From an uncultured Lachnospiraceae bacterium (GTDB lineage Bacteria > Bacillota > Clostridia > Lachnospirales > Lachnospiraceae): a DNA stretch of 64,000 bases. Below are positions 1 through 20,955 of this stretch, in pieces. The stretch's first letter is position 1; the number at the start of each line of letters is the position of its first letter. Made by a program: the position numbers and the translations under genes. The DNA is taken from the NCBI GenBank assembly GCA_944381575.1, contig CALWLS010000005.1, positions 111,374 to 175,373 on the forward strand, written 5' to 3'. The notes below the pieces were generated by a model. It did not search any database. It saw nothing but the letters and a program-made list of their open reading frames with translations, and had not been told where the DNA came from.

Positions 1-1
1 A

Positions 2-55
2 AAAGACAAACAATTTTACGGACATACGATAGGAAACTTGTTTGACAGGCGGTGA
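2..55 (+). CDS. tail end of an upstream phage gene (partial)
   Basis: Two plus-strand frames are open from the window edge. One stops at 43-45, the other at 53-55, just before the ATG at 60. The second gives 17 residues ending in Asp-Arg-Arg and is the better fit for the packed spacing of this operon, but the choice is not secure. No function can be given from so little sequence. Confidence 0.3.
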   Translation, partial: KDKQFYGHTIGNLFDRR

Positions 56-59
56 TGAC

Positions 60-446
60 ATGATAAATGGATTTTATATGAATGGTAATTGGTGGTCGGT
101 TCGGTGGACAGACCCGACAAATCCTATCCTTGTAGACCGCACCAATATTTTGACTTGCGCAGTCACTGACCCTGATACCATGACCATTTATCTGTCAAAT
201 AAACTCAGTGGTGAATTTCTCACAAGGGTTGTTCTTCATGAACTGAGCCATGCGATGATGTACAGCTATCATTACCTTGATGAAATACATAGATATTGCA
301 AGAAGCGACACTGGATTGAGATGGAAGAACTGATTGCAAATCTGATAGCAGATAGAGCCTATGAAATATTCCAGAGAGCCTATGATATTGTAGGCGATGA
401 GGCAATAAGATTTGTTCCATACGGGCTTGAAAGGAGCGTGGCATAA
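60..446 (+). CDS. phage HExxH zinc metallopeptidase-like protein
   Basis: A 128-residue protein with a HELSH motif at about residues 66-70, followed by a helical segment with two Glu residues (EMEEL) that could supply the third zinc ligand. This is the layout of small ImmA/IrrE- or SprT-like metallopeptidases. ATG 60 is chosen over the TTG at 42 because AGGCGGTG lies 6-13 bases upstream of it. The gene sits among head-tail connector genes and its stop overlaps the next start by one base, so it is made with structural proteins rather than with a repressor. A role in maturation processing or in host-protein cleavage is conjecture. Confidence 0.65.
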   Translation: MINGFYMNGNWWSVRWTDPTNPILVDRTNILTCAVTDPDTMTIYLSNKLSGEFLTRVVLHELSHAMMYSYHYLDEIHRYCKKRHWIEMEELIANLIADRAYEIFQRAYDIVGDEAIRFVPYGLERSVA

Positions 447-853
447 TGCGCTCAAGAACAAGAGATAGGCAGGATATTTGGTTTTCAACAGTGACTGAGA
501 AAAAGATCGGGATTGACACCATACAGGAATATGCAAAACCTGTTAAAAAGAGAATGTCGGTCAGCACGGGTACAGGATTGCCCGGGCAGGTATCAGCAGG
601 ACTTGTAGTTGACTATGACCGTGAGATTTTGAATTATGACCATGATTTTCTACAGGTAGAGGGAAACGTGGTTTGGGTAGATGTGATTCCCGATATTGAT
701 GATGAGGGCAACCTTGTAATGTCTGATGATGAAGTTACTCCAACAGTTCCTCCCGATTATCGAATAACTCAGATATTCCGAACCGCGAAGGGGCATGTTG
801 ATGTGTTTGGCATTAAGAAAATAGGAGGAAACAATGGTTATTCCAAAGATTAA
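446..853 (+). CDS. head-tail connector / head closure protein, putative
   Basis: A 135-residue acidic protein that opens with Arg-rich sequence and has a beta-rich C-terminal half (YRITQIFRTAKGHVDVFGIK). Its size and its place just upstream of a gp10-like gene match head closure (stopper) proteins of siphophages, often annotated as minor capsid proteins. The assignment rests on position more than on sequence. AAGGAG at 431-436 serves the start, and the ATG overlaps the TAA of the preceding gene, so translation is probably coupled. Confidence 0.5.
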   Translation: MRSRTRDRQDIWFSTVTEKKIGIDTIQEYAKPVKKRMSVSTGTGLPGQVSAGLVVDYDREILNYDHDFLQVEGNVVWVDVIPDIDDEGNLVMSDDEVTPTVPPDYRITQIFRTAKGHVDVFGIKKIGGNNGYSKD

Positions 854-980
854 ATGGGAAGAACGGCCTGAACATCTAACTATACTTGACCCAATGTTTT
901 ATAAGAATGAATTAACGATATTCCCTAACGCGGAAATAGGTGTAAATGCAGAAAAAACAGATAAAAATCAATCTTTTTGA
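834..980 (+). CDS. small conserved-position phage protein (48 aa)
   Basis: A short frame starting MVIPKIKWEERPEHLT, served by AGGAGG at 823-828 and overlapping the genes on both sides. The strong ribosome site and the tight overlaps argue that it is real. It lies where siphophages often encode a small connector component, but no family can be named from the sequence. The next gene starts 35 bases before its stop and has only a weak ribosome site, so that gene may depend on this one being translated. Confidence 0.6.
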   Translation: MVIPKIKWEERPEHLTILDPMFYKNELTIFPNAEIGVNAEKTDKNQSF

Positions 981-1467
981 CGGCGTGTCGATCAATGATG
1001 CTATTAAGCAGATTCAGGAATATAACAGAAATCTCAAAAGAAAGACTCAGATATTAATAGATAAGCTTGCTGAAAAAGGCCTTGAAGTTGTTCAAACAAC
1101 AATGGAGTCGGTGCCTGCCGAGGAAAAAGGCTCGTACAATACAGAAATCATTAATAACAGTAGAGGAGACATCATCGGTGCGGCAATAAGGCTGACTGGC
1201 GACAAAGTTCTCTTTATAGAGTTCTCCGCTGGTATAACCTACGGTACTCCGAAAGGCGGATATCCGTTGGATTCAGGCAAGCAATATGGTGTAGGAACTT
1301 ATCCGGGACAAGTTCATGCCGAGGATCCGCGAGGCTGGTGGTACATAGACGAACAAGGCAATAAACACCATTCTTACGGTAATAGGGCATATATGCCGAT
1401 GTATCATGCAGAATTGGAAATCCTATCGCAGGTAAGTAATATTGCTAAAGAGGTATTTGGACGGTGA
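946..1467 (+). CDS. HK97 gp10-like / minor capsid-type tail completion protein
   Basis: A 173-residue protein with an N-terminal helix (SINDAIKQIQEYNRNLKRK) and a Gly/Tyr-rich C-terminal half containing the segment GNRAYMPMYHAELEI. This is the usual build of HK97 gp10-like neck proteins and matches its place before the tail terminator gene. It probably acts at the head-tail interface. The start at 946 lies inside the small upstream frame. An alternative name is minor capsid protein 2; sequence alone does not separate the two labels. Confidence 0.6.
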   Translation: MQKKQIKINLFDGVSINDAIKQIQEYNRNLKRKTQILIDKLAEKGLEVVQTTMESVPAEEKGSYNTEIINNSRGDIIGAAIRLTGDKVLFIEFSAGITYGTPKGGYPLDSGKQYGVGTYPGQVHAEDPRGWWYIDEQGNKHHSYGNRAYMPMYHAELEILSQVSNIAKEVFGR

Positions 1468-1471
1468 TTAA

Positions 1472-1873
1472 ATGACTGTTTTGGAATTGATTAACAATAT
1501 ATTCACCAAGTGGGGAGATGCCATTAGCGAAACGGCTGTAAAGACTAACTACTCAATGGAGAATAGCACGGTAGTAGCTGAACTCCCAGCGGCAACGCTT
1601 TACTTCCAAGGCCTTCCGACAAGCGACTCTGACCTTATGGGAACGGAAGCATCAGTAACTCCAACAATTCAGGTGGATATTTACACAAAGGGGCAGAAGG
1701 CATTGACGCAAGCTTATGAGATAGATGCCGTGAGCCATAGCATTTTAAACGGCGTATACGGCATGAGGAGGGCTTATGGGCCTGAGCTTATACAATCCAC
1801 AGACCCGTCAATCAAACGCCTTACGAGCCGCTACACAAGGCTTTTTGGCTTAGCTGACAGTCTACCTGAGTGA
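1472..1873 (+). CDS. tail terminator-like protein
   Basis: A 133-residue protein: an N-terminal helix with a following Trp (ELINNIFTKWGD), a strand ending in LYFQGLP, and another containing IQVDIYTKG. This matches the small alpha/beta fold of tail terminator (gpU or minor-capsid-3-like) proteins that cap the tail tube and join it to the head. It follows the gp10-like gene by 4 bases and precedes the tail genes, the expected position. A hairpin with a T-run follows at 1916-1940. Confidence 0.6.
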   Translation: MTVLELINNIFTKWGDAISETAVKTNYSMENSTVVAELPAATLYFQGLPTSDSDLMGTEASVTPTIQVDIYTKGQKALTQAYEIDAVSHSILNGVYGMRRAYGPELIQSTDPSIKRLTSRYTRLFGLADSLPE

Positions 1874-1916
1874 CGGAAACATCGGAGAAATCCGTTGATA
1901 TATAAAAAAATTGTTT

Positions 1917-1940
1917 AGGGCGCATCGCGCTCTATTTTTT
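1917..1940 (+). terminator. intrinsic terminator before the holin gene
   Basis: A 7-bp stem with one G-T pair (AGGGCGC/GCGCTCT, 1917-1923 with 1927-1933) and a 3-base loop, followed by TATTTTTTAT. A smaller CGGA-GAAA-TCCG hairpin lies just upstream at 1883-1894. Together with the terminator at 2324-2353 it brackets the holin gene as a separate cassette. Confidence 0.6.
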
Positions 1941-1962
1941 ATGCAAAGAAAGGAGATAAAGC

Positions 1963-2253
1963 ATGGACTTAATGCAGTATATCAAGCCTGAATTAGTCAT
2001 AGTAGCTATTGTCTGCTATGTGATCGGGATTGGGTTAAAAAAGACTCAGACCATTAAGGATAAGTACATCCCATTTATCCTTGGCACAAGCTCGATAGTT
2101 CTGTGTGCAATCTGGGTATTTGCAAACTGTCCAGTTTCCACTGGTCAGGAGATTGCCTCGGCTGTATTCATGGCAATCACTCAAGGAATATTAATGGCTG
2201 GCTTAAGCACTTACGTCAATCAACTTATTAAGCAGACAAAGAAAACAGAGTGA
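1963..2253 (+). CDS. phage holin
   Basis: A 96-residue membrane protein with three hydrophobic segments at about residues 11-25, 37-53 and 66-86 and a Lys-rich C-terminus (NQLIKQTKKTE). Family features seen are the opening MxxIKPEL, a GLKK turn after the first membrane segment and TQGILMAG-x-STYVNQLIKQ near the end. These match the small Firmicutes phage holins (Phage_holin_5_2 type), which open the membrane to release the endolysin. The gene lies inside the tail module, about 19.5 kb from the endolysin, flanked by terminator hairpins. No second holin was seen near the lysin. Confidence 0.75.
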   Translation: MDLMQYIKPELVIVAIVCYVIGIGLKKTQTIKDKYIPFILGTSSIVLCAIWVFANCPVSTGQEIASAVFMAITQGILMAGLSTYVNQLIKQTKKTE

Positions 2254-2323
2254 TTGGAGGTGATCCTCGAATCTCCCGGACGCAGGGTTAAGTCGTCAAC
2301 ATTTTCCATTTTGGAAAAAGTTC

Positions 2324-2353
2324 AACCGTGTGCAAATACATACGGTTCTTTTT
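2324..2353 (+). terminator. intrinsic terminator after the holin gene
   Basis: A 9-bp stem (AACCGTGTG/CATACGGTT, one G-T pair) with a CAAATA loop at 2324-2347, followed by CTTTTT. Transcripts of the tail tube gene must read through it or start after it. Leader element copy A begins 3 bases after the T-run. Confidence 0.7.
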
Positions 2354-2355
2354 GT

Positions 2356-2415
2356 ATTACCGGCTACCAGACAGGTAGTCGCTGACCTCAAAAAGTTAGA
2401 GGTAGAAAGGAGCTA
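2356..2415 (+). promoter_or_regulatory. conserved tail-gene leader element, copy A
   Basis: Starts ATTACC and then forms a 7-bp stem GGCTACC/GGTAGTC (2362-2368 with 2374-2380, loop AGACA), followed by GCTGACCTC. ACCTC can pair with GAGGT at 2399-2403, just before the AAAGGAG ribosome site of the tail tube gene. Copies B (3871) and C (12944) share the layout with compensating base changes in the stem. No known RNA family was recognised. What it senses or binds is unknown. Confidence 0.6.
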
Positions 2416-2418
2416 TTT

Positions 2419-2907
2419 ATGGCAACAACGGGTCTGCCGGGATTATCTACTCTCGGAATTATTTTTTCCTACGGCGTAGAGACAACGTCCGGAACAAAAC
2501 CAACAACATTTACAATTCTTCACAGATGTAACGATATTCCAGAAATTACGCTTGAAACAGAAACTATTGATGCATCAGCACTTGAAGATATGCAATCTCG
2601 TTATATTGCAGGACGTCAAGATACAGGTGGTGAATGGTCTCCGGTATTCAACCTTACGGATGAGGTAATTACTGAGTTGGAAGAGATGATGGAGGCCGCA
2701 GCAACAGGACTTGAGAGCGGTCTTAGAACATGGTTCCAGGTTACCGTTCCAAATCTTACAAAGTCCTTCTTTGTAGTTGGTCAGCCGGGTTCAAAGATAC
2801 CACTTCCTGCAATGGCACAGAACGAGCTTCTCACGGGTTCGATCAGTATTGCCATCGATGAATATGTGGGACTTGATACAAAAGTAGTGCCTACAGAAGG
2901 AGACTGA
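2419..2907 (+). CDS. major tail (tube) protein
   Basis: A 162-residue protein opening MATTGLPGLSTLGI, with the EITLETETIDASALED segment and a TGGEWSPVF stretch typical of siphophage tail tube subunits. It polymerises as stacked rings around the tape measure to form the tail shaft. It stands directly before the tail chaperone pair and tape measure gene, as expected. AAAGGAG lies 8 bases before the ATG. The 165-base leader holds a terminator and leader element A, suggesting separate control of this highly expressed gene. Confidence 0.8.
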   Translation: MATTGLPGLSTLGIIFSYGVETTSGTKPTTFTILHRCNDIPEITLETETIDASALEDMQSRYIAGRQDTGGEWSPVFNLTDEVITELEEMMEAAATGLESGLRTWFQVTVPNLTKSFFVVGQPGSKIPLPAMAQNELLTGSISIAIDEYVGLDTKVVPTEGD

Positions 2908-2939
2908 TTTAAAAATTGAATAATCAAGGAGGATAACAT

Positions 2940-3470
2940 ATGTACAAGGTACTAACTATAGGCGGTAAGGATTATAGGCTTGAGTACACAATCGAGGCGG
3001 CGCTCTACAAGGATGGAGTTGACCGCCTCGTTGATTTTTTAGGCGGAACATTCGGAGCTGAGGGAGCTGATGCAATAGCAGAAAAGCTATCAGATGAGGA
3101 AGCTAAGAAAACAGTAAGAGTTGAGATTGTAAAAAATCTTAAGTCGGAAGTTACTAATCTTCCAAATACAGCTCTTATTCTGTTTTATTCAGGTTTACTT
3201 GAGTATCACGGAGAGGAAGGCGATCAAAGCGTCATGTCCATATCCGATGCCAAGCATCTTGCAAAACAGTTATTTGCTGAACAACCTGATGATGGCATAA
3301 AGGATTTTGCAGATCTTTTAGCCACATGTATTGATCAGATGGCGGCCGATGGTTTTTTCAAGACAACGGGACTGGAGACACTGATGCAGAATGCAGCGAA
3401 GTCGAGCGGGGTCGCAGTTCCAAACAGAGCAGCACGCAGGGCAAAGGCGAAAGCTTCCGCGAACAAGTAA
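2940..3470 (+). CDS. tail assembly chaperone gpG-like protein
   Basis: A 176-residue protein (MYKVLTIGGKDYRLEYTIEAA) with a Lys/Ala/Arg-rich end (RRAKAKASANK). It is the only full frame of its size between tail tube and tape measure genes, the place of lambda gpG. A second open frame continues from inside its 3-prime end in the -1 frame up to the tape measure leader, so the pair fits the gpG/gpGT arrangement. The chaperones coat the tape measure protein during tail assembly and are absent from the finished virion (family knowledge). AAGGAGG at 2928-2934 serves the start. Confidence 0.75.
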   Translation: MYKVLTIGGKDYRLEYTIEAALYKDGVDRLVDFLGGTFGAEGADAIAEKLSDEEAKKTVRVEIVKNLKSEVTNLPNTALILFYSGLLEYHGEEGDQSVMSISDAKHLAKQLFAEQPDDGIKDFADLLATCIDQMAADGFFKTTGLETLMQNAAKSSGVAVPNRAARRAKAKASANK

Positions 3471-3850
3471 ATTATCTTTTTGAAAATATTTATGAGTGCG
3501 GATTAACAGAAAAAGATGCCCTAAAGATGACGCCGAAATCTATCAAACTTTACATAGAGGGATACTGGAAAAGGCGCAAGAATGAGTGGGAAAAAGCTGA
3601 ATATCAGTCATGGCTCACAGGTCTTTATAACATAAGTTCCATAGGGTGCAGTATCAGCCATAAGGTTAAATACCCTAAAAATCCAATGGAACAGCAAAAG
3701 GTTTATGTTGAGGATATTGAACTGACTGAAGAACAGAAAGAAGCAGCAAGGCAGGATTTTCTTGCAAGGCTTCAAAGAATGGAAAAACGTTTTAATAAGG
3801 CCAAAGAACGAAAGAATGGCTTTGAAATCGTTAAAGATCAGGGTGGATGA
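3443..3850 (+). CDS. gpT domain of the frameshifted tail chaperone gpGT
   Basis: This frame is open upstream of its only ATG (3527) and reads FREQVNYLFENIYECGLTEK across the stop of gpG, which is typical of gpT domains normally reached by -1 frameshifting. GGCAAAG at 3440-3446 is a possible slip site (frame-0 codons GCA AAG become GGC AAA). It keeps pairing at the second codon but not perfectly at the first, so the exact site is uncertain. There is no good ribosome site before ATG 3527. The C-terminal half is highly charged (EEQKEAARQDFLARL). Confidence 0.65.
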   Translation, partial: KGESFREQVNYLFENIYECGLTEKDALKMTPKSIKLYIEGYWKRRKNEWEKAEYQSWLTGLYNISSIGCSISHKVKYPKNPMEQQKVYVEDIELTEEQKEAARQDFLARLQRMEKRFNKAKERKNGFEIVKDQGG

Positions 3851-3870
3851 GTGTAACAGCTCATTTACTC

Positions 3871-3926
3871 ATTACCGGCTGTCAAATAGGTGGCAGTCGC
3901 TAACCTCGCATATTTAGGAGGTGAAT
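3871..3926 (+). promoter_or_regulatory. conserved tail-gene leader element, copy B
   Basis: ATTACC, then the 7-bp stem GGCTGTC/GGCAGTC (3877-3883 with 3892-3898, loop AAATAGGT), then GCTAACCTC. ACCTC (3902-3906) can pair with GAGGT in the AGGAGGT ribosome site (3918-3922) of the tape measure gene and would hide it. A 6-bp stem ATGAGT/ACTCAT lies just upstream (3847-3872). An 18-codon frame starting at ATG 3847, overlapping the gpT stop, runs through the element and ends at the TAA inside it. Confidence 0.6.
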
Positions 3927-6900
3927 ATGGCAGAAACAATAGATTCTCTCCAGTTAGAGATATCGGCGGATTCTGCCATAGCTGAAAAATCGTTAAATAG
4001 ATTAGCTTCAGCTCTGATAAAAGTGCAGTCGTCCGTTAATGGCATAAGCACTGGACAATTTTCCAATTTAGCAAATGGTATCCGTAGATTATCAGATGCT
4101 ATGGAAAGAATGAATGGTGCGGTCAAAACGGCTGATTTCACTCGAATAGCGACAGGGCTTAACAAACTGACATCAGTCAATGTCCTTGGAGTGAGTGATG
4201 CATCAAGAGCGATTAGTACATTGACGGCTAATTTAAGCAGTCTTGGAACGATATCTTTTGATGCACAGGGCATAGCAAATATAGCTAATGCGATAGCTCA
4301 GCTTGGCAGAAAAACAGTTACTCAAGCAACTCAGAATATACCGGCTTTATCAACTGCATTGACTCAGTTAGTCAGTGGTATGAATGGAATAAAGGCGGTT
4401 TCATTTGATACTAAAGGTTTACTTGAGCTTACCACTGCAATAAGTCGCTTAGGTGGCAAATCAGCTACGGCAGCAGCAAGCGGAAATATAGAAAAGCTTG
4501 CAGCAGCGTTGAAAAACATGATGACAACGCTATCCACAGCTCCGCAGGTCAGCCGAAACATTATTGACATGGCTCAGGCCTTAGGACAACTTGCCGCATC
4601 CGGCAACAGGGTAGGCTCAGCAACTTCAAGTTTGACTAATTCATTTAAGACTTTTGATATTTCGACAAAGAAATCATCGAAAAGTGCCGGTGGATTAGCA
4701 GCTGCGTTTGGTAAATTTTATGCGACATATTGGCTGATACTTAGAAGTATCGGCGTATTTAAAAAAGCCATTGACATATCTTCAGACCTTACCGAGGTTC
4801 AGAACGTGGTAGACGTAACCTTCGGTGATATGGCCGAAAAGATGAATGCGTTTGCCGATTCTGCATTGCAGAATTACGGTATGTCAGAACTTATGGCAAA
4901 GACAATAGCCAGCCGTTTTCAGGCTATGGGTGTTGCGATGGGCTTTGCTCAGGGGCAGATGTCAGACATGTCCATTGAGCTTACAAAGCTTGCCGGAGAT
5001 ATGGCTTCTTTTTACAATGTGACGCAACAGGAGATAGCCACTTCTTTACAGTCAATCTTCACTGGAGAGACTGAACCGTTAAGAAGATTTGGTCTTGATC
5101 TTTCATTTGCAACAATAGAAGCATGGGCTTTAGCAAACGGTCTTGATGCAGACATGCAAAGCATGACCCAGGCTGAAAAGACCATGCTGAGGTATCAATA
5201 TGTGCTGGCAAATACCGGGGCAGCTCAAGGCGACTGGGCACGTACAAGCCAAAACTGGGCAAACCAGTTAAGACTTCTAACAGGAAATTTTGAGCAACTT
5301 GGCTCTATAGTCGGCGGTGTCCTTGTTAATGCCTTTAAGCCATTCATACAGGCTCTCAATAGCGTCATGGGCGCAGTTATCAACTTTGCACAGGTAGTAT
5401 CTGACGCATTAGGAGCTATATTTGGATGGGAATACCAAGTAGGTGGAGGTGCTGCACAGGAATATGAAGCTGCCGCAGGCGCAGCAAGTGACCTTGAAGA
5501 TGCAACTGGCGGAGCAGCTAAAAAAGCAAAAGAATTAAATAGATACATAGCCGCATGGCATGAAGTCAATAATATGACCACAAGTGACAGTGGTTCAGGT
5601 GGTGGCTCAGGCGGAGGTGGCGGTGCCGGTGGAGCCGGTGGAGCTGCTGATGGTGGAGAATGGATTCAAAAAGAGAGTCTATGGGAAAAATACACGAGTA
5701 GTATAGATACGCTCTATGAACTCGGTGATTACATAGGCGGAGTCCTGACCGATGCTATGAATGACATTGATTGGGACAGCGTTTATCAGGGAGCAAGGAA
5801 TTTTGGAACAGGCCTTGCTTCTTTTTTAAATGGGCTTATTTCACCTGAATTATTTGGCGCTTTAGGTAGGACTATTGCCGGAGCGTTGAATACAGTCATA
5901 TATGCACAACTATCCTTTGGACAGACATTCGACTGGACTAATTTAGGCGAGTCGATAGCAGCAGGAATTAACAACTTTTTTGCTACATTTGATTTTGCAG
6001 CTTCTGCTGAAACATTCAATACGTTTGCTTTAGGCATATTGGATGCAATAATTGCCGCCATAGATAAGACCGACTGGGACATGATAGGAAGTCAGATCGG
6101 TACATATCTCGAAGGTATTGATTTTATTGCCATAGGTAAAAAAGTCGGAAAAGCATTGTGGAAGGCTATTAATGCCGGATTCGACATATACAAGGGCATG
6201 TTCAGTGCCGCACCACTCGAAACGTCACTATTAAGCATATTAACGGTTGTAAAAAATCTTAAACAGATAAAGAGCATAACAAAGCTTATAGGTGATTTAG
6301 GCACTAAAGCTAAAAGTGCTGCTAAACTCGTTGAAACATTAGCGAAAGCGTTAACGGGAAATCAGTCGGCTGTACTTTTACTGTCACAAAACTATCCGAA
6401 ATTATCATCCTCTTTGCAGACAACATTAACAGGGTTTAATAAACTGCAAAATGCATTTAAGCAAGGCAAGGGATTTAGTACCTTAAATGAGATGATAACT
6501 AATCTCAGGAATAACTTAACGGGATTCCAAAAGATAGGTATAACCTTGGGCAGTGCTTTTGCTGAGTTTAACATGGTGAATGATGCGGTAAGTAACTTAG
6601 CGACTGGCACAGGAAATGTAGCCGCTAATCTTGCTGAATTAGCTGGAGGTGCTGCCATAGGTGCAGCTGGTATGTATGCTGCACTTGGCCCGGCTGGACT
6701 TGCAATGGCAGCTGTTACTGGAGTGATCGCAGCTCTTAAGGGCATTGATGAAGCCATGAAAGAAAAAAGCGGTTATAACGATCTTGTTGAAAGATTAGAT
6801 GCTTTATCAGACCAAGCAGATGAGGTGAACCGTAAGAGTGAATCTATAAAACAGAATCTTGAAGGTATGCGTGATTCTTTTGAAACAACAGGCGAAGCTC

Positions 6901-9030: not shown

Positions 9031-9765
9031 ATGAATAACATAAAGCGGTTTGTTAGGAAGAATATAACTTTAGTAAATATTATCATTGTAATGCTTGGAA
9101 TTTTGGCGATATTTATTAGTGTACATCTTCCAAATGTAAATACTCAGAATATATGCATGGGTATAGGGACATCATTTTTTGCATCAGGTATAGTAGTCCT
9201 AATAACAACTTTATTGACTGACAACACAGAAGAAGAGGACAGATTATCAGACTGGGGCATAGAGGCAATTTATAGCACTCGCGGAGAGATGAATATATCA
9301 TGCGATAAATACATGCGTAAATCAAAAAGAATAGATATTATCGCTTTTGGACTCAGGTCTTGGAGAGATAGTCAGGCAAAAACTATTGAAAAACTATTAA
9401 AAAACGGTTGCCAGGTCAGGATATTGACAATGGATCCTGATTGTAATAATTTACAGCAACGCGAAAAGGATGAGCAGCAGGAGATAGGCAGCATAAAATA
9501 TTCTATAGAGCAACTAATAAGTTGGGCTAAAGTGTTAAACTCAAGGAATTATGCAGGATCAATAGAAATAAAGTGCTATGATGCTCAACCATTAAATTTT
9601 ATGTTTTTAATGGATAACAGACTTTTTATAGGCCCATATGAGTATGGAAAAGGAAGCCAACAGACCATATCCTATGAATTTAACACATCGGGTAGGGCAT
9701 ATGGATATTATACAGACTATTTCCAATCCCTGTGGAATGATACCAATTTCTCGAAAAGTGCATGA
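9031..9765 (+). CDS. two-TM membrane protein with PLD-like C-terminal domain
   Basis: A 244-residue protein with two membrane helices (about residues 12-30 and 41-61) and a cytoplasmic domain with RIDIIAFGLRSWRDSQ, then a strand CQVRILTMDPDCNN, the pattern of PLD-like/DUF5919-type domains found on many prokaryotic signalling and defence proteins. The usual HxK active-site motif is not evident, so it may sense rather than cut. It has its own promoter (8972-9000) and sits in a moron position between tape measure and distal tail genes. A role in superinfection exclusion or phage defence is inferred from domain build and location only. Confidence 0.5.
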   Translation: MNNIKRFVRKNITLVNIIIVMLGILAIFISVHLPNVNTQNICMGIGTSFFASGIVVLITTLLTDNTEEEDRLSDWGIEAIYSTRGEMNISCDKYMRKSKRIDIIAFGLRSWRDSQAKTIEKLLKNGCQVRILTMDPDCNNLQQREKDEQQEIGSIKYSIEQLISWAKVLNSRNYAGSIEIKCYDAQPLNFMFLMDNRLFIGPYEYGKGSQQTISYEFNTSGRAYGYYTDYFQSLWNDTNFSKSA

Positions 9766-11827: not shown

Positions 11828-12559
11828 ATGAATGATCTTATACTTTTTAATAATCCTGAGTTTGGCGATATTCGCACAATCATGATAGATGGCGAGCCGT
11901 GGTTTGTTGGAAGGGATGTAGCGAAAGCTTTAGGATATTCTAAACCTGAAGGAGCAATAAAGAATAATGTTGATGAAGGAGATACCCTCAGACAGGGGGT
12001 CTCCGATGCTAACAATCATACTCAACAGATGATAATAGTTAATGAATCCGGCCTTTACTCACTCATATTTGGAAGCAAACTGGAATCGGCAAAGAAATTC
12101 AAACGCTGGGTAACAAGCGAAGTTCTTCCACAGCTCCGAAAAACCGGCAGTTATGGTTTGACTCTTACCACAGACCAACAGATACAGCTTTTGGCTAAAG
12201 GTCAGGTTGAAGTCACCAAAAGGCTTGATAAAAATGAAAGTGATATCAAAGAAGTCAAAGATGACCTTGAGGAACTGAAGCTTGATCTTCCATTGTTCCC
12301 GGTCGAAGCTGAGATTATAACAAAGACGGCAAGGAGACGTGGTACAGAGATACTTGGAGGAAAGCAGTCTAAAGCATACAAGAGGGTAAGTATTAGAAAT
12401 ACCGTATACCGCAATCTATACATCGACATAAACAGGAATTTCAATGTACGTTCCTATAAAGCGATAAAGAGGAGAGATTGCGAAAGAGCAGCAAGCCTCA
12501 TAGAGAAATGGACTCCGCCACTCTATATTGAGGACAAAATAAAAGAAGCAAACGCTTGA
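11828..12559 (+). CDS. phage antirepressor, BRO-N plus ORF6C domains
   Basis: A 243-residue protein. The N-terminal BRO domain shows GEPWFVGRDVAKALGYSKPE (about 21-40), NESGLYSLIFGSKLESAKKF (about 74-93) and VTSEVLPQLRKTGSYG. A helical linker follows (residues 120-155). The C-terminal ORF6C-type domain contains ITKTARRRGTEILGGKQ and ASLIEKWTP. Such proteins antagonise phage repressors or bind DNA. It is odd to find one within the late tail region, third in the HNH operon. GGAGGTG serves the start, and the small-RNA promoter overlaps its stop codon. Confidence 0.85.
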   Translation: MNDLILFNNPEFGDIRTIMIDGEPWFVGRDVAKALGYSKPEGAIKNNVDEGDTLRQGVSDANNHTQQMIIVNESGLYSLIFGSKLESAKKFKRWVTSEVLPQLRKTGSYGLTLTTDQQIQLLAKGQVEVTKRLDKNESDIKEVKDDLEELKLDLPLFPVEAEIITKTARRRGTEILGGKQSKAYKRVSIRNTVYRNLYIDINRNFNVRSYKAIKRRDCERAASLIEKWTPPLYIEDKIKEANA

Positions 12560-18223: not shown

Positions 18224-18547
18224 ATGGCAAATAAGATTATCCGAGCAAGTACGGAAGACATGCAAAGGCTTGTACAGAAAATCTATGATAGGTTTGGAAA
18301 TGTACAAAATACCTCGGATTCAAACAAAGCAGTTGCAAGCGCAGGAAAACTTTCGACAGAAAGAACAATAACTCTTACAGGAGATGTTTCTGGCTCCGTA
18401 GCGTTTGATGGCAGTAAAAATATTTCAGTCACAGTAAGCGTGGTAGATGATAGTCACAATCACACTATCGCCAATGTGGACGGGCTTCAAGCAAAGCTCG
18501 ATAATCTGACAATGGATAGTGATGGCAGCATTTCTGATTCCGATTAA
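18224..18547 (+). CDS. short tail fibre segment protein (107 aa)
   Basis: Opens MANKIIRASTEDMQRLVQKI and then has TITLTGDVSGSVAFDGSKNI, a very common fibre repeat, ending DGSISDSD. The end resembles that of the 15955-16803 protein (VIADSD), suggesting repeated module exchange. It is followed closely by the variable fibre gene. Confidence 0.6.
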   Translation: MANKIIRASTEDMQRLVQKIYDRFGNVQNTSDSNKAVASAGKLSTERTITLTGDVSGSVAFDGSKNISVTVSVVDDSHNHTIANVDGLQAKLDNLTMDSDGSISDSD

Positions 18548-18567
18548 ATATGATAGGAGGAAAATTT

Positions 18568-19125
18568 ATGGGACTTTCTAAGCTTTGGGGAAAAGATAGT
18601 TCAGGAAATCGAGGATTCGTTTTTTCTCATATAAAAACTATATATTATAATTGGGCACAAAAAAAACTCTTAAGCACAAAGCTTGATGAAATGGATAGTG
18701 CCACAAATGGCAAAATTGATAAAACTTCAATAGTTCAAGTAGAAAGCACATCTCAAACTAATGTTCCAAGCTCGGCTTATTTAAAGACTGTTAAGGATGC
18801 TTTAGACGGAGATATTAGTGAACTAAATGCCAATGGCCCAACGTATTTTTATTTACGTTATAATAGTACTAACGGATACTTAGATTTATCTTATATTTAC
18901 GTAAAAGATTTAGTTATACTGGCAGGAATATTTGTAATTAATATTGAAACACCTTCATATTCCATAACAGGAAATGTACCTAAATCAATAATCCCTAATG
19001 GTTTCTTAGTATATGATACTCTTGGGGAGTATCGTTTTCAGATTAATCCAAGAGGCATATTCCAAAATTCGGATGCTTTACCTGCTGGGACTTATATTGT
19101 AACTACGGCCTATATTAAAAGTTAA
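18568..19125 (+). CDS. variable tail fibre protein, currently expressed C-terminus
   Basis: A 185-residue protein. The constant part (about 1-86) begins MGLSKLWGKDSSGNRGFVFS. From Asn-Ala-Asn near residue 87 the sequence becomes a beta-rich tip (TYFYLRYNSTNGYLDLSYIY) that is presumably receptor-binding. The junction codons CTA AAT GCC AAT lie in the AAATGCCAA site (18825-18833), which recurs at the start of both silent opposite-strand cassettes and would join them in the same frame. ATG 18568 is used because AGGAGG is 8 bases upstream; the in-frame ATG at 18550 precedes that site. Confidence 0.7.
   Translation: MGLSKLWGKDSSGNRGFVFSHIKTIYYNWAQKKLLSTKLDEMDSATNGKIDKTSIVQVESTSQTNVPSSAYLKTVKDALDGDISELNANGPTYFYLRYNSTNGYLDLSYIYVKDLVILAGIFVINIETPSYSITGNVPKSIIPNGFLVYDTLGEYRFQINPRGIFQNSDALPAGTYIVTTAYIKS
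18825..18833 (+). repeat. recombination-site candidate in the fibre gene
   Basis: AAATGCCAA followed by TGGCC. The TGCCAA core also occurs in the site used by the R64 Rci shufflon recombinase (GTGCCAATCC-type). A partial copy in the same orientation, TGAACTAA then TGCCAA, occurs at 19142-19159 beyond the fibre stop codon. Confidence 0.55.
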
Positions 19126-19177
19126 TAAATCTCAAATTTAATGAACTAACTGTTGCCAAACCGAAGTGCTTATATTA

Positions 19178-19271
19178 ACATATGTTTATAAACGTATGTA
19201 TTTTTGAGTCGCAATTTTAATAAAATGCATACATCTAACCTCCAATGTTTACTTATAAACAAAGGAGGTAT
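19178..19271. repeat. palindromes in the recombinase leader
   Basis: A 22-base near-perfect palindrome, ACATATGTTTATAAACGTATGT, broken by a single mismatched pair, at about 19178-19199, and a smaller TGTTTA-CT-TATAAACA hairpin at about 19246-19261, directly before the recombinase ribosome site. They share the TTTA...TAAAC core and could be recombinase or regulator binding sites, or could hinder translation. Confidence 0.45.
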
Positions 19272-19275
19272 TTTT

Positions 19276-20262
19276 ATGCAAAAAATCAGAGACAAAGTTC
19301 TATCGCTTTTGTCACACAACTTCAGTTCAGAACAGTTAAAGATGATTGATTTAGCTGTTGCCGAAGCTTTAAAGGGCAAAAAGATAGAAGAAGAGGAAAC
19401 CTTGCCCGCGGTGATTAATGGTGGCATTCCTGAAGTTATGGAGTATTTGGCAAGAAAAAAGTCCAAAGGCTTAACTATGGGCACTATCGAACAATACAGG
19501 CAGGTTTTAACGGCTTTTATGCGAGCAACACAAAAGAAACTGGACGATATCAAAGACTGGGATATTATAAGATTTCTTGACCAATATGAATCATATCGTG
19601 GTGTCGGAAAACGAAGAAAAGACAGCATGAGAGTTATTCTCAATGGTTTCTTTAGATATATGACAGATTGCGGACGGTTAAAAGCTAATCCAATGGCTAC
19701 TATTGAAGCGATAAAATTTAAAAAGAAAGTAAGGCAGCCTTTAAGCGATATAGAGTTTGAAAGGCTCAGGAGGGCTTGCATAACGCCCAAAGAACGTGCG
19801 CTTGTCGAGTTCTTATTCGCTACAGGCTGCCGTGTTTCAGAGGTAGTAAATGTAAACAGAAGTGATATAGACTATTTTGAACAGACATTAAAGGTGACAG
19901 GTAAAGGAAACAAGGAAAGATTTGTATATATCAATGCAGCTGCCGTGGTGGCGCTTGATGAGTATTTTGTAAGTAGAACTGATTCTGAGGAGGCTTTATT
20001 TGTTTCAGATAGAAAACCTAATCAGAGGTTAAAGAAAAATGCTATTGAGAAGATTATAAGACAGATAGGTGAAAGAGCGTCAATCAACAGAAGGGTTTTT
20101 CCTCATTTATTAAGGCATACAGCGGCCACACATTTACACCAACACGGAATGCCATTAGAGGAACTTCAAAAGATATTAGGGCATGAATCAGCGGATACCA
20201 CAAGGATATATGCCAAGGACGATCCGGCTATAATTCATAACTCATACTGTAGGGCATCATAA
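19276..20262 (+). CDS. tyrosine recombinase, Rci/XerC-D type
   Basis: A 328-residue protein. A core-binding SAM-like domain (about 45-140) is followed by the catalytic domain with Arg in FATGCRVSEVVNVNRSDI, Lys in VTGKGNKERFVYIN, HLLRHTAATHLHQHG, GHESADTTRIY and the final Tyr. All catalytic residues are present. ATG 19276 is chosen because AAAGGAGG is 8 bases upstream. It lies between the active fibre tip and two silent ones, so its most likely task is DNA inversion of the fibre tip. That it also integrates the phage cannot be excluded, since the usual integrase would be at the left end, outside the window. Confidence 0.85.
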   Translation: MQKIRDKVLSLLSHNFSSEQLKMIDLAVAEALKGKKIEEEETLPAVINGGIPEVMEYLARKKSKGLTMGTIEQYRQVLTAFMRATQKKLDDIKDWDIIRFLDQYESYRGVGKRRKDSMRVILNGFFRYMTDCGRLKANPMATIEAIKFKKKVRQPLSDIEFERLRRACITPKERALVEFLFATGCRVSEVVNVNRSDIDYFEQTLKVTGKGNKERFVYINAAAVVALDEYFVSRTDSEEALFVSDRKPNQRLKKNAIEKIIRQIGERASINRRVFPHLLRHTAATHLHQHGMPLEELQKILGHESADTTRIYAKDDPAIIHNSYCRAS

Positions 20263-20287
20263 AAATAAATAGATTCAAGTTTGTTAA

Positions 20288-20309
20288 AAGCCTGCAAAAA
20301 TGGAGGCTT
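20288..20309 (+). terminator. hairpin after the recombinase gene
   Basis: AAGCCT/AGGCTT (20288-20293 with 20304-20309), followed by the weak T-tract TATTTAG. It separates the recombinase from the oppositely oriented cassettes. Confidence 0.4.
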
Positions 20310-20447
20310 ATTTAGTGTACTTATTTTTATATATGGAAAGTAATATAGTCAGATAAGTAGAAGTATTATGCAAAATTTGTCGAGAAAGCATAATGAAAAC
20401 GTGGAAAAATTCTTGTTCATAATTGTGCTAAATTTGAGTTGTACTTT

Positions 20448-20711
20448 TTACTGTACACTTATGGAACGCCATTCGCTCCATGATGTCCAATAGGTACGTA
20501 CGCGTAGATTTTGGCCATTCCATGACAGTGTATATTGTATGGCTACTCCATTGAGTGTGTCTCCGCCTGGAATATTGCATAAAAAGCCATTCGTCTCAAG
20601 ACAGTTTGCGACAGGGAATGAAGTCACTATACGATATAATCCCGGTTCTGTTAATTGGTTAGCATCGGCATCAGCAGTGAATGTGCGGCGCGGTATAAGA
20701 GCCTTGGCATT
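20448..20711 (-). other. silent tail-fibre tip, cassette B (no own start)
   Basis: An open frame of 87 codons on the minus strand from the AAATGCCAA site to TAA (20450-20448). It reads NAKALIPRRTFTADADANQL near the start and ends YTLSWNGQNLR...WRSISVQ, with TSWSEWRS close to the end: a typical fibre C-terminal tip. It has no start codon, ribosome site or promoter. An in-frame TAA lies directly upstream. It makes sense only as an alternative tip joined to the fibre gene by inversion. Confidence 0.7.
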
Positions 20712-20713
20712 TT
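20703..20713 (-). repeat. recombination-site candidate before cassette B
   Basis: Minus-strand AAAATGCCAAGG. The frame (AAT GCC AAG) matches that of the fibre-gene site, so a crossover here keeps the reading frame. Confidence 0.55.
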
Positions 20714-20885
20714 ATGTAGTATTGTCGGAAAATACTACAGATCCACCTGTAGTAAAAATATATTCTATATATCCTGTTTTTCCATAAGAATCGGCCATGA
20801 AACAACGGATATTTAGGTTGTTATTTTCCTGTAATACGAATCTTACGGCCTTAATATGATCCTCATTTACTTGCACCTTGGCATT
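20712..20885 (-). other. silent tail-fibre tip, cassette A (no own start)
   Basis: 57 codons on the minus strand from the AAATGCCAA site to a TAA (20714-20712) that abuts cassette B in the same frame. It starts NAKVQVNEDHIKAVRFVLQE and ends FTTGGSVVFSDNTT. An ATG exists upstream in this frame (near 20918), but it has no ribosome site and lies in terminator sequence. It is unlike the expressed tip and cassette B, as expected for alternative receptor-binding ends. Confidence 0.65.
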
Positions 20886-20886
20886 T
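20876..20886 (-). repeat. recombination-site candidate before cassette A
   Basis: Minus-strand AAATGCCAAGG, the frame being TTA AAT GCC AAG, like the fibre gene's CTA AAT GCC AAT. With the site at 20703-20713 it forms a direct repeat bounding cassette A. Confidence 0.55.
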
Positions 20887-20908
20887 AATTGAATAAAGTT
20901 AGTAACTC

Positions 20909-20931
20909 GAACCCGCAAGGGTTCTTTTTTT
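20909..20931 (+). terminator. terminator after the invertible fibre region
   Basis: A 6-bp stem with GCAA tetraloop (GAACCC-GCAA-GGGTTC, 20909-20924) followed by seven T. It lies outside the presumed outer recombination site, so it would end fibre transcripts in every orientation. Confidence 0.75.
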
Positions 20932-20955
20932 ATATAAATTTTCAGGAGGTCAGAA

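Follow-up and report, generated by a model that had tools for sequence, protein, structure and literature searches.

A prophage in the 64,000-nucleotide stretch of DNA analysed here (the window), which lies on contig C5 of the genome of an uncultured Lachnospiraceae bacterium, very probably carries a tail-tip shufflon, an array in which site-specific inversion would swap the tips of a tail fibre in a phage whose host is of the Lachnospiraceae kind. The 9-mer AAATGCCAA occurs three times in the window, once on the forward strand (18825), within a fibre gene, and twice on the reverse strand (20712 and 20886), at the heads of two cassettes, tips B and A, which are frames without a start codon. 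The original prediction had read these elements as a shufflon-like switch, and the site in the fibre gene and both reversed cassettes lie where it had placed them. Between the tips there is, as it had claimed, a complete tyrosine recombinase gene (19276-20262, 328 amino acids (aa)), which matches PF00589 with an E-value of 7.9e-38, and in a six-row alignment of recombinases the residues R186, K210, H277, R280, H303 and Y312, which we take to be catalytic, are invariant. The three sites share one codon phase: past the site the frame stays open for 96 aa in the expressed tip X, 84 aa in B and 54 aa in A, compared with 2-16 aa in the other phases. Site-specific inversion is by far the best explanation, because a second prophage of the same genome has the same site together with a shared tip whose homology starts at that site, and because the plan recurs at five further loci whose recombinases are homologous.

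In the mechanism that we propose, the recombinase would cut within AAATGCCAA, and a crossover between 18825 (+) and 20712 (-) would invert about 1.9 kilobases (kb) and bring tip B behind the constant part of the fibre, while one between 18825 (+) and 20886 (-) would invert about 2.05 kb and bring tip A there. The recombinase gene would invert along with the segment, the previous tip would end up silent at the far end, and the fusion would keep its codon phase, with the site itself translated as E-L-N-A. Three tips could in this way alternate within one lysogen line, presumably altering what the virion binds, and the expectation of at least three tips is the right one for this prophage in so far as the predicted switching occurs.

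A second array in the same genome

The genome (2.0 megabases (Mb) in 18 contigs) holds a second such array at C4:169055-171447 (loci L002 and L006), which lies among tape measure, Dit, tail, holin and endolysin families and belongs to a second siphophage-type prophage. Its switching gene matches PHROG tail fibre families at residues 14-73 (E 0.0002-0.0003), which is its constant part, and its recombinase has 79% aa identity to that of the window. The array runs from the constant part through a site, tip D, another site, tip B and the recombinase to reversed tips B, C and C, each with its own site, and then to a hairpin, with tip B present in both orientations on either side of the recombinase. 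Cassette B of the window (20428-20712) is identical to one C4 copy at 284/285 positions and to the other at 282/283; the two C4 copies are mutually identical over 283 base pairs (bp), as an inverted pair, and cassette C of C4 is an exact 176-bp duplicate from site to site. The duplications of B and C in C4 could also be assembly effects.

Apart from this tip the two prophages are divergent. The recombinase coding sequences are identical at 674/980 positions (69%), and the constant fibres agree in 49/84 columns (58%), which is the level of a shuffled neighbouring stretch (58%); they are not homologous. The main site, by contrast with the constant fibres, is identical at 20/20 positions, with the identity stopping exactly at the end of the core, and the homology of tip B between the loci begins exactly at the AAATGCCAA at the head of the tip. 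The outer flank is identical at 46/48 positions and starts at the edge of the outermost window site, while in C4 about 65 bp stand between the outermost site and this shared flank. Because the stops of window tip A and of C4 tips C and D overlap the next site, the cassettes abut without spacers.

Since tip B is so nearly identical in two divergent prophages, it moved recently. What stands out most in the system is that one genome has a tip common to two prophages: a tip cassette 99.6% identical in two co-resident and otherwise divergent prophages is documented, and tip exchange between phages inside one lysogen becomes directly testable. One could explain the shared tip by ordinary homologous recombination or gene conversion between the prophages, without site-specific inversion, and the near-identity of tip B, the 283-bp inverted pair in C4 and the far edge of cassette B (20428), which is not at a site, would suit such an exchange; we nevertheless regard it as very improbable, given that a repeat search with the window tips found no usable homology beyond 9-14-bp matches at the sites, and that the tips take their orientation and phase from the site. 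Within the framework of site-specific inversion, we speculate, with a good deal of doubt, that the two co-resident prophages share one recombination code and one pool of tips, with cassettes passing at AAATGCCAA, and that, as each switch also flips the recombinase with respect to the late operon, the rate of switching could come to depend on which tip is in place.

Related loci and the phase of the tips

Homologues of the window recombinase were drawn from a Lachnospiraceae metagenome-assembled genome (MAG; loci L015 and L016), from IMG/VR contigs (L008, L013) and from the genomes G085, G567 and G562. The MAG is, by matching places, G217 of the window's own genus, and G085, G567 and G562 are of the same family. 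In the genus, 2/25 genomes (own included) have a match at E <=1e-50, each with two copies; matches are also present in 3/392 genomes of an evenly drawn sample of the order (own included) at E 1e-80 and in 2/200 of a family sample at E 1e-60. In a tree of 16 recombinases those of the window, C4, L015 and L016 group with 100/100 support; the pairing of window and C4, at 91/92, falls short of the starred level, and support for most of the deeper forks is weak. A 32%-identical tyrosine recombinase is also encoded on the plasmid NZ_CP096052.1 of Enterococcus faecium.

The array plan is repeated with other sites at five further homologue loci, namely L016, L008, L024 (in G085), L022 (in G567) and L013, the largest array among the loci examined being that of L008, where seven tips are open for 93-168 aa past the site. 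The window, C4, L016 and L024 (the last with the gene on the strand opposite to the fibre) have the recombinase within their outermost sites, and L008, L022 and L013 have it outside them. Across G217 the L016 site has 4 places, none of them outside this locus, and its backward control has 3. All 27 site copies in the seven loci (window 3, C4 5, L016 4, L008 7, L024 4, L022 2, L013 2) lead into frames of 54-200 aa that have the same phase as the expressed tip, and the site is translated as LNA, LNN, LNHN, LNSK or TNGL. As a control we took words repeated at least three times and required all copies to be open for 50 aa or more in one common phase: the seven regions hold 59 such repeated 9-mers, of which 28 pass, every one of them overlapping the sites. 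AAATAATAA is absent from this control because two-letter words were left out. Related recombinases are thus seen to occur with a variety of site sequences, and the reading frame of the fibre nevertheless runs on through the site.

Excluded from the phase count were L009, L010, L015 and L023, which have no clear array; L014, a 63-residue match; L017/L018, taken on the strength of matching places as L015/L016 again; L037, on the same contig as L008; and L011 and L012, which have the look of HsdS invertons. The related recombinases of the last two come from phage-collection records from human faeces, and they stand between inverted repeats that, by eye, presumably belong to HsdS-like specificity genes.

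Some of the relatives also speak to the nature of the tips. In L024 a reversed cassette scores above the Pfam threshold for the tail-fibre C-terminus PF21882 (26.8 vs 24.9) and a second cassette matches a PHROG minor tail protein (2.8e-9), and these two matches to tail families support the reading of the cassettes as tips, which would presumably bind receptors.

Weighing the alternatives

A number of results weigh against a working shufflon in the window. Taken on its own, the repeat is near chance: 1380/2000 Markov sequences of the region's composition contain some 9-mer in at least three copies and in both orientations, 26/300 simulated 64-kb sequences contain AAATGCCAA at least three times, and genome-wide this 9-mer occurs at 29 places (8 in the two loci and 21 elsewhere), its backward pattern at 24. 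The claim of the original prediction that the arrangement is hard to explain by chance was accordingly too strong for the window alone. Within the phase count, 7/27 sites are the expressed ones, which define the phase, and among the 20 silent sites tip B accounts for three entries and tip C for two; for L022 the agreement is by construction, because its sites were found via the in-frame peptide. Homologue loci L009, L010, L015 and L023 offer no clear array. Neither tip B nor the fibre turned up in the 24 other genomes of the genus that were searched (0/24), and no relative there has the same tips reordered on the same fibre. Family searches gave no confident match for tips X, A, B and C, and single-sequence structure models of tip B and the fibre are too poor to be of use, at a predicted local distance difference test (pLDDT) score of 46 and 34. 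Lastly, inversion at this locus is a prediction from the sequence, and it is from there that we infer that this recombinase acts on these sites and that inversion still happens.

The last point would also suit a fossil shufflon, an array built by the recombinase and now locked, with silent tips that are remnants out of use. The L015 locus of a related genome resembles such a decayed array, where four further matches to the fibre site (up to 3 mismatches allowed) all have 3 mismatches. In the window, on the other hand, the three frames and the recombinase are intact, with the presumed catalytic residues kept, and tip B has the marks of a recent move; we therefore hold a fossil to be improbable, if the least so of the alternatives. 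Cassette order and the orientation of the recombinase vary among the relatives, with too few shared tips for a before/after pair.

The system itself is lifted far above chance by the second locus and the relatives. Chance as its source was rejected by the confinement of an 11-mer, by the density of sites in C4 and by the phase tests. The 11-mer CTAAATGCCAA is present at exactly 6 places in the 2.0-Mb genome, of which 5 are in the C4 locus and 1 is in the window fibre gene; with one mismatch allowed it is found at 21 places, no more than the backward control (29), and of the reversed window sites one differs from it at the first base and the other at the first two. C4 has five copies of AAATGCCAA in 18 kb, where shuffles give 0.30 and 0/200 reach five. 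The chance of an open frame at the site is about 0.02 for A and 0.0025 for B, which is less likely than the repeat. The shufflon-like switching of tips that had been predicted is supported, by the second prophage, the shared tip B and the five further loci, as a predicted activity.

It is hardly credible, in turn, that the recombinase is the prophage integrase or unrelated cargo, and the repeats a product of chance or of a conserved LNAK coding motif. Such an explanation could draw on the near-chance repeat of a 9-mer that is common in the genome, on the translation of the site as LNA(K/N), and on the window itself, within which no further tyrosine or serine recombinase gene was found. It meets the objections that the gene lies between fibre and lysis genes, away from the prophage end; that the 11-mer is confined to the two loci; that silent copies would have no reason to keep phase; and that a 422-aa PF00589 gene stands at C5:52254, left of the phage-like genes read by eye from C5:78000 on. 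That this last gene is the prophage integrase is a guess.

Features of the window locus

The coordinates of the locus and the sites of the related arrays are collected in Table 1.

Table 1. Elements of the putative window shufflon and arrays at related loci
Feature	Position	Strand	Remarks
Switching fibre open reading frame	18568-19125	+	In-frame ATG at 18550 also open
Constant N-terminal part of switching fibre gene	18568..18824	+	Directly 3' of fibre-like gene
Main crossover site ATTAGTGAACTAAATGCCAA (predicted)	18814..18833	+	Core AAATGCCAA at 18825-18833, inside fibre gene
Tip X, now in fibre	18826..19125	+	99 aa, with stop
Tyrosine recombinase gene	19276..20262	+	328 aa; PF00589; inside predicted invertible segment
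Silent tip B	20448..20711	-	87 aa; head without start codon
Crossover site AAATGCCAA heading tip B (predicted)	20704..20712	-	
Silent tip A	20712..20885	-	57 aa + stop TAA; stop overlaps next site by one base
Crossover site AAATGCCAA heading tip A (predicted)	20878..20886	-	
Constant outer flank	20886..20933	+	With terminator-like hairpin
Terminator-like hairpin GAACCCGCAAGGGTTC + T-run	20909-20924		
Inverted pair CTCAAATTTA, 10 bp	19131..19140 and 20429..20438	+ and -	Flanks recombinase
L016 array			Site CTAACGG(T/C)CTG; 4 sites
L008 array (IMG/VR contig)	1-5000		Site AAATAATAA; 7 sites, both orientations
L024 array (G085)			Site GAATTAAATCACAA; 4 sites
L022 array (G567)			Site GAACTAAATAGTAAG; 2 sites
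L013 array			Site TTAAATAGTAA; 2 sites

The neighbouring fibre-like gene (18224-18547) has PHROG tail fibre matches, and the constant fibre part has no match of its own in the family searches. Tip A gave weak family matches only (E 0.083 and 0.13). For tip B a sequence search of the PDB returned a single match (E 0.53), and neither tip B nor the fibre has a relative in the viral_contigs collection, nor in the phages collection at E 0.01. The terminator that had been proposed outside the array is indeed there, as a hairpin with a T-run, and its support comes from the presence of the same hairpin in the second locus, not from the scan count (2 such sites vs 1.4 in shuffles). A promoter scan, with 15 promoter-like sites vs 11.0 in shuffles, was not informative.

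Just inside the window cassettes stands the inverted pair CTCAAATTTA, and in L016 a 14-bp inverted pair, CTGAATCTTAGGAG at 4914 and 6178, flanks the recombinase; each may be due to chance or be a second site. Elsewhere in the window, reading by eye suggests cargo-like genes between the tape measure and tail-tip genes (9031-9765 and 11828-12559), one a membrane protein and one a Bro-N-type antirepressor. Left of the phage head genes on C5, two adjacent frames (L028, 424-2033) have, by eye, an IS200/IS605-type look.

Comparison with known systems

The R64 shufflon is that of a plasmid pilus adhesin. It resembles the window in multi-cassette inversion by an integrase-family tyrosine recombinase, and TGCCAA is common to the cores. 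R64 Rci uses the core GTGCCAA within a 31-bp site that has a shared right arm (PMC4176322). The original prediction had noted a resemblance in this core; as a sign of kinship we reject it: no such right arm is seen, and in the window and C4 the core is followed by no more than GG, in 7/8 site copies. The nearer relatives of the window recombinase use AAATAATAA, CTAACGGTCTG, TTAAATAGTAA and others, and because these sites are unrelated, the match to R64 is probably due to chance.

Fibre switching by inversion is also the work of Min, Cin and Gin, but these are serine recombinases (PMC6109161). A serine-invertase system of their kind was rejected for the window, since its recombinase is of PF00589 and the genome's three PF00239 genes are found on C1, C3 and C18, with none on C5. 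A genome-wide survey of inversions reported some that surround tail fibres, in prophages belonging to four proteobacterial species (PMC5903667). Among the matches listed in a search of open-licence PMC titles, none mentions a system of this sort for phages of Lachnospiraceae, a weak indication that none has been described; the window would extend tyrosine-recombinase fibre shufflons to prophages of this family, with a sequence-exact prediction.

For the placement of the recombinase gene inside the flipping segment there is a parallel in ORF34/ORF35/ORF36 of the halovirus phiCh1 (PMC4284463; PMC8651126), in which the recombinase lies between opposed fibre sequences and inverts with the segment, swapping the 3' ends of the fibres. 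phiCh1 differs as an archaeal virus with two fibre genes, whereas the window has one constant part and several start-less cassettes. On the best reading, by analogy, the window system would work like phiCh1.

The Rin systems of Bifidobacterium prophages use sites of 11 bp; their recombinase lacks an arm-binding domain and stands at the flank of the array, and their inversions were observed in reads (PMC6109161); a like system with 8-bp sites has been reported in Eggerthella lenta clade 1 prophages (PMC8778435). Common to Rin and the window are the prophage setting, an XerC/D-like tyrosine recombinase beside a receptor-binding gene, a constant N-terminus with exchangeable C-terminal parts, and short asymmetric sites inside the gene and before each variable part. 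Indeed, the window has a short site inside the fibre gene and, in inverted copies, before each start-less tip; its tyrosine recombinase adjoins the fibre gene with the presumed catalytic residues kept; every tip would be in frame, judged on phase alone; and, as to rarity, CTAAATGCCAA is restricted to the two loci, while the 9-mer core of all window copies is not rare. The two differ in their sites (TTCCCTAACCC or TTCCGTAT in Rin-type systems, AAATGCCAA in the window), in the recombinase, which flanks the array in Rin and lies inside the invertible segment in the window, in their hosts, which are Actinobacteria for Rin and of the Lachnospiraceae kind for the window, and in that inversions were observed in reads for Rin and are predicted for the window. 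Rin proper was rejected as a label, given the different rix site (TTCCCTAACCC) and the recombinase inside the array. In plan, however, Rin offers the closest described system on the best reading, and the likeness proposed is one of working, whether by descent or not.

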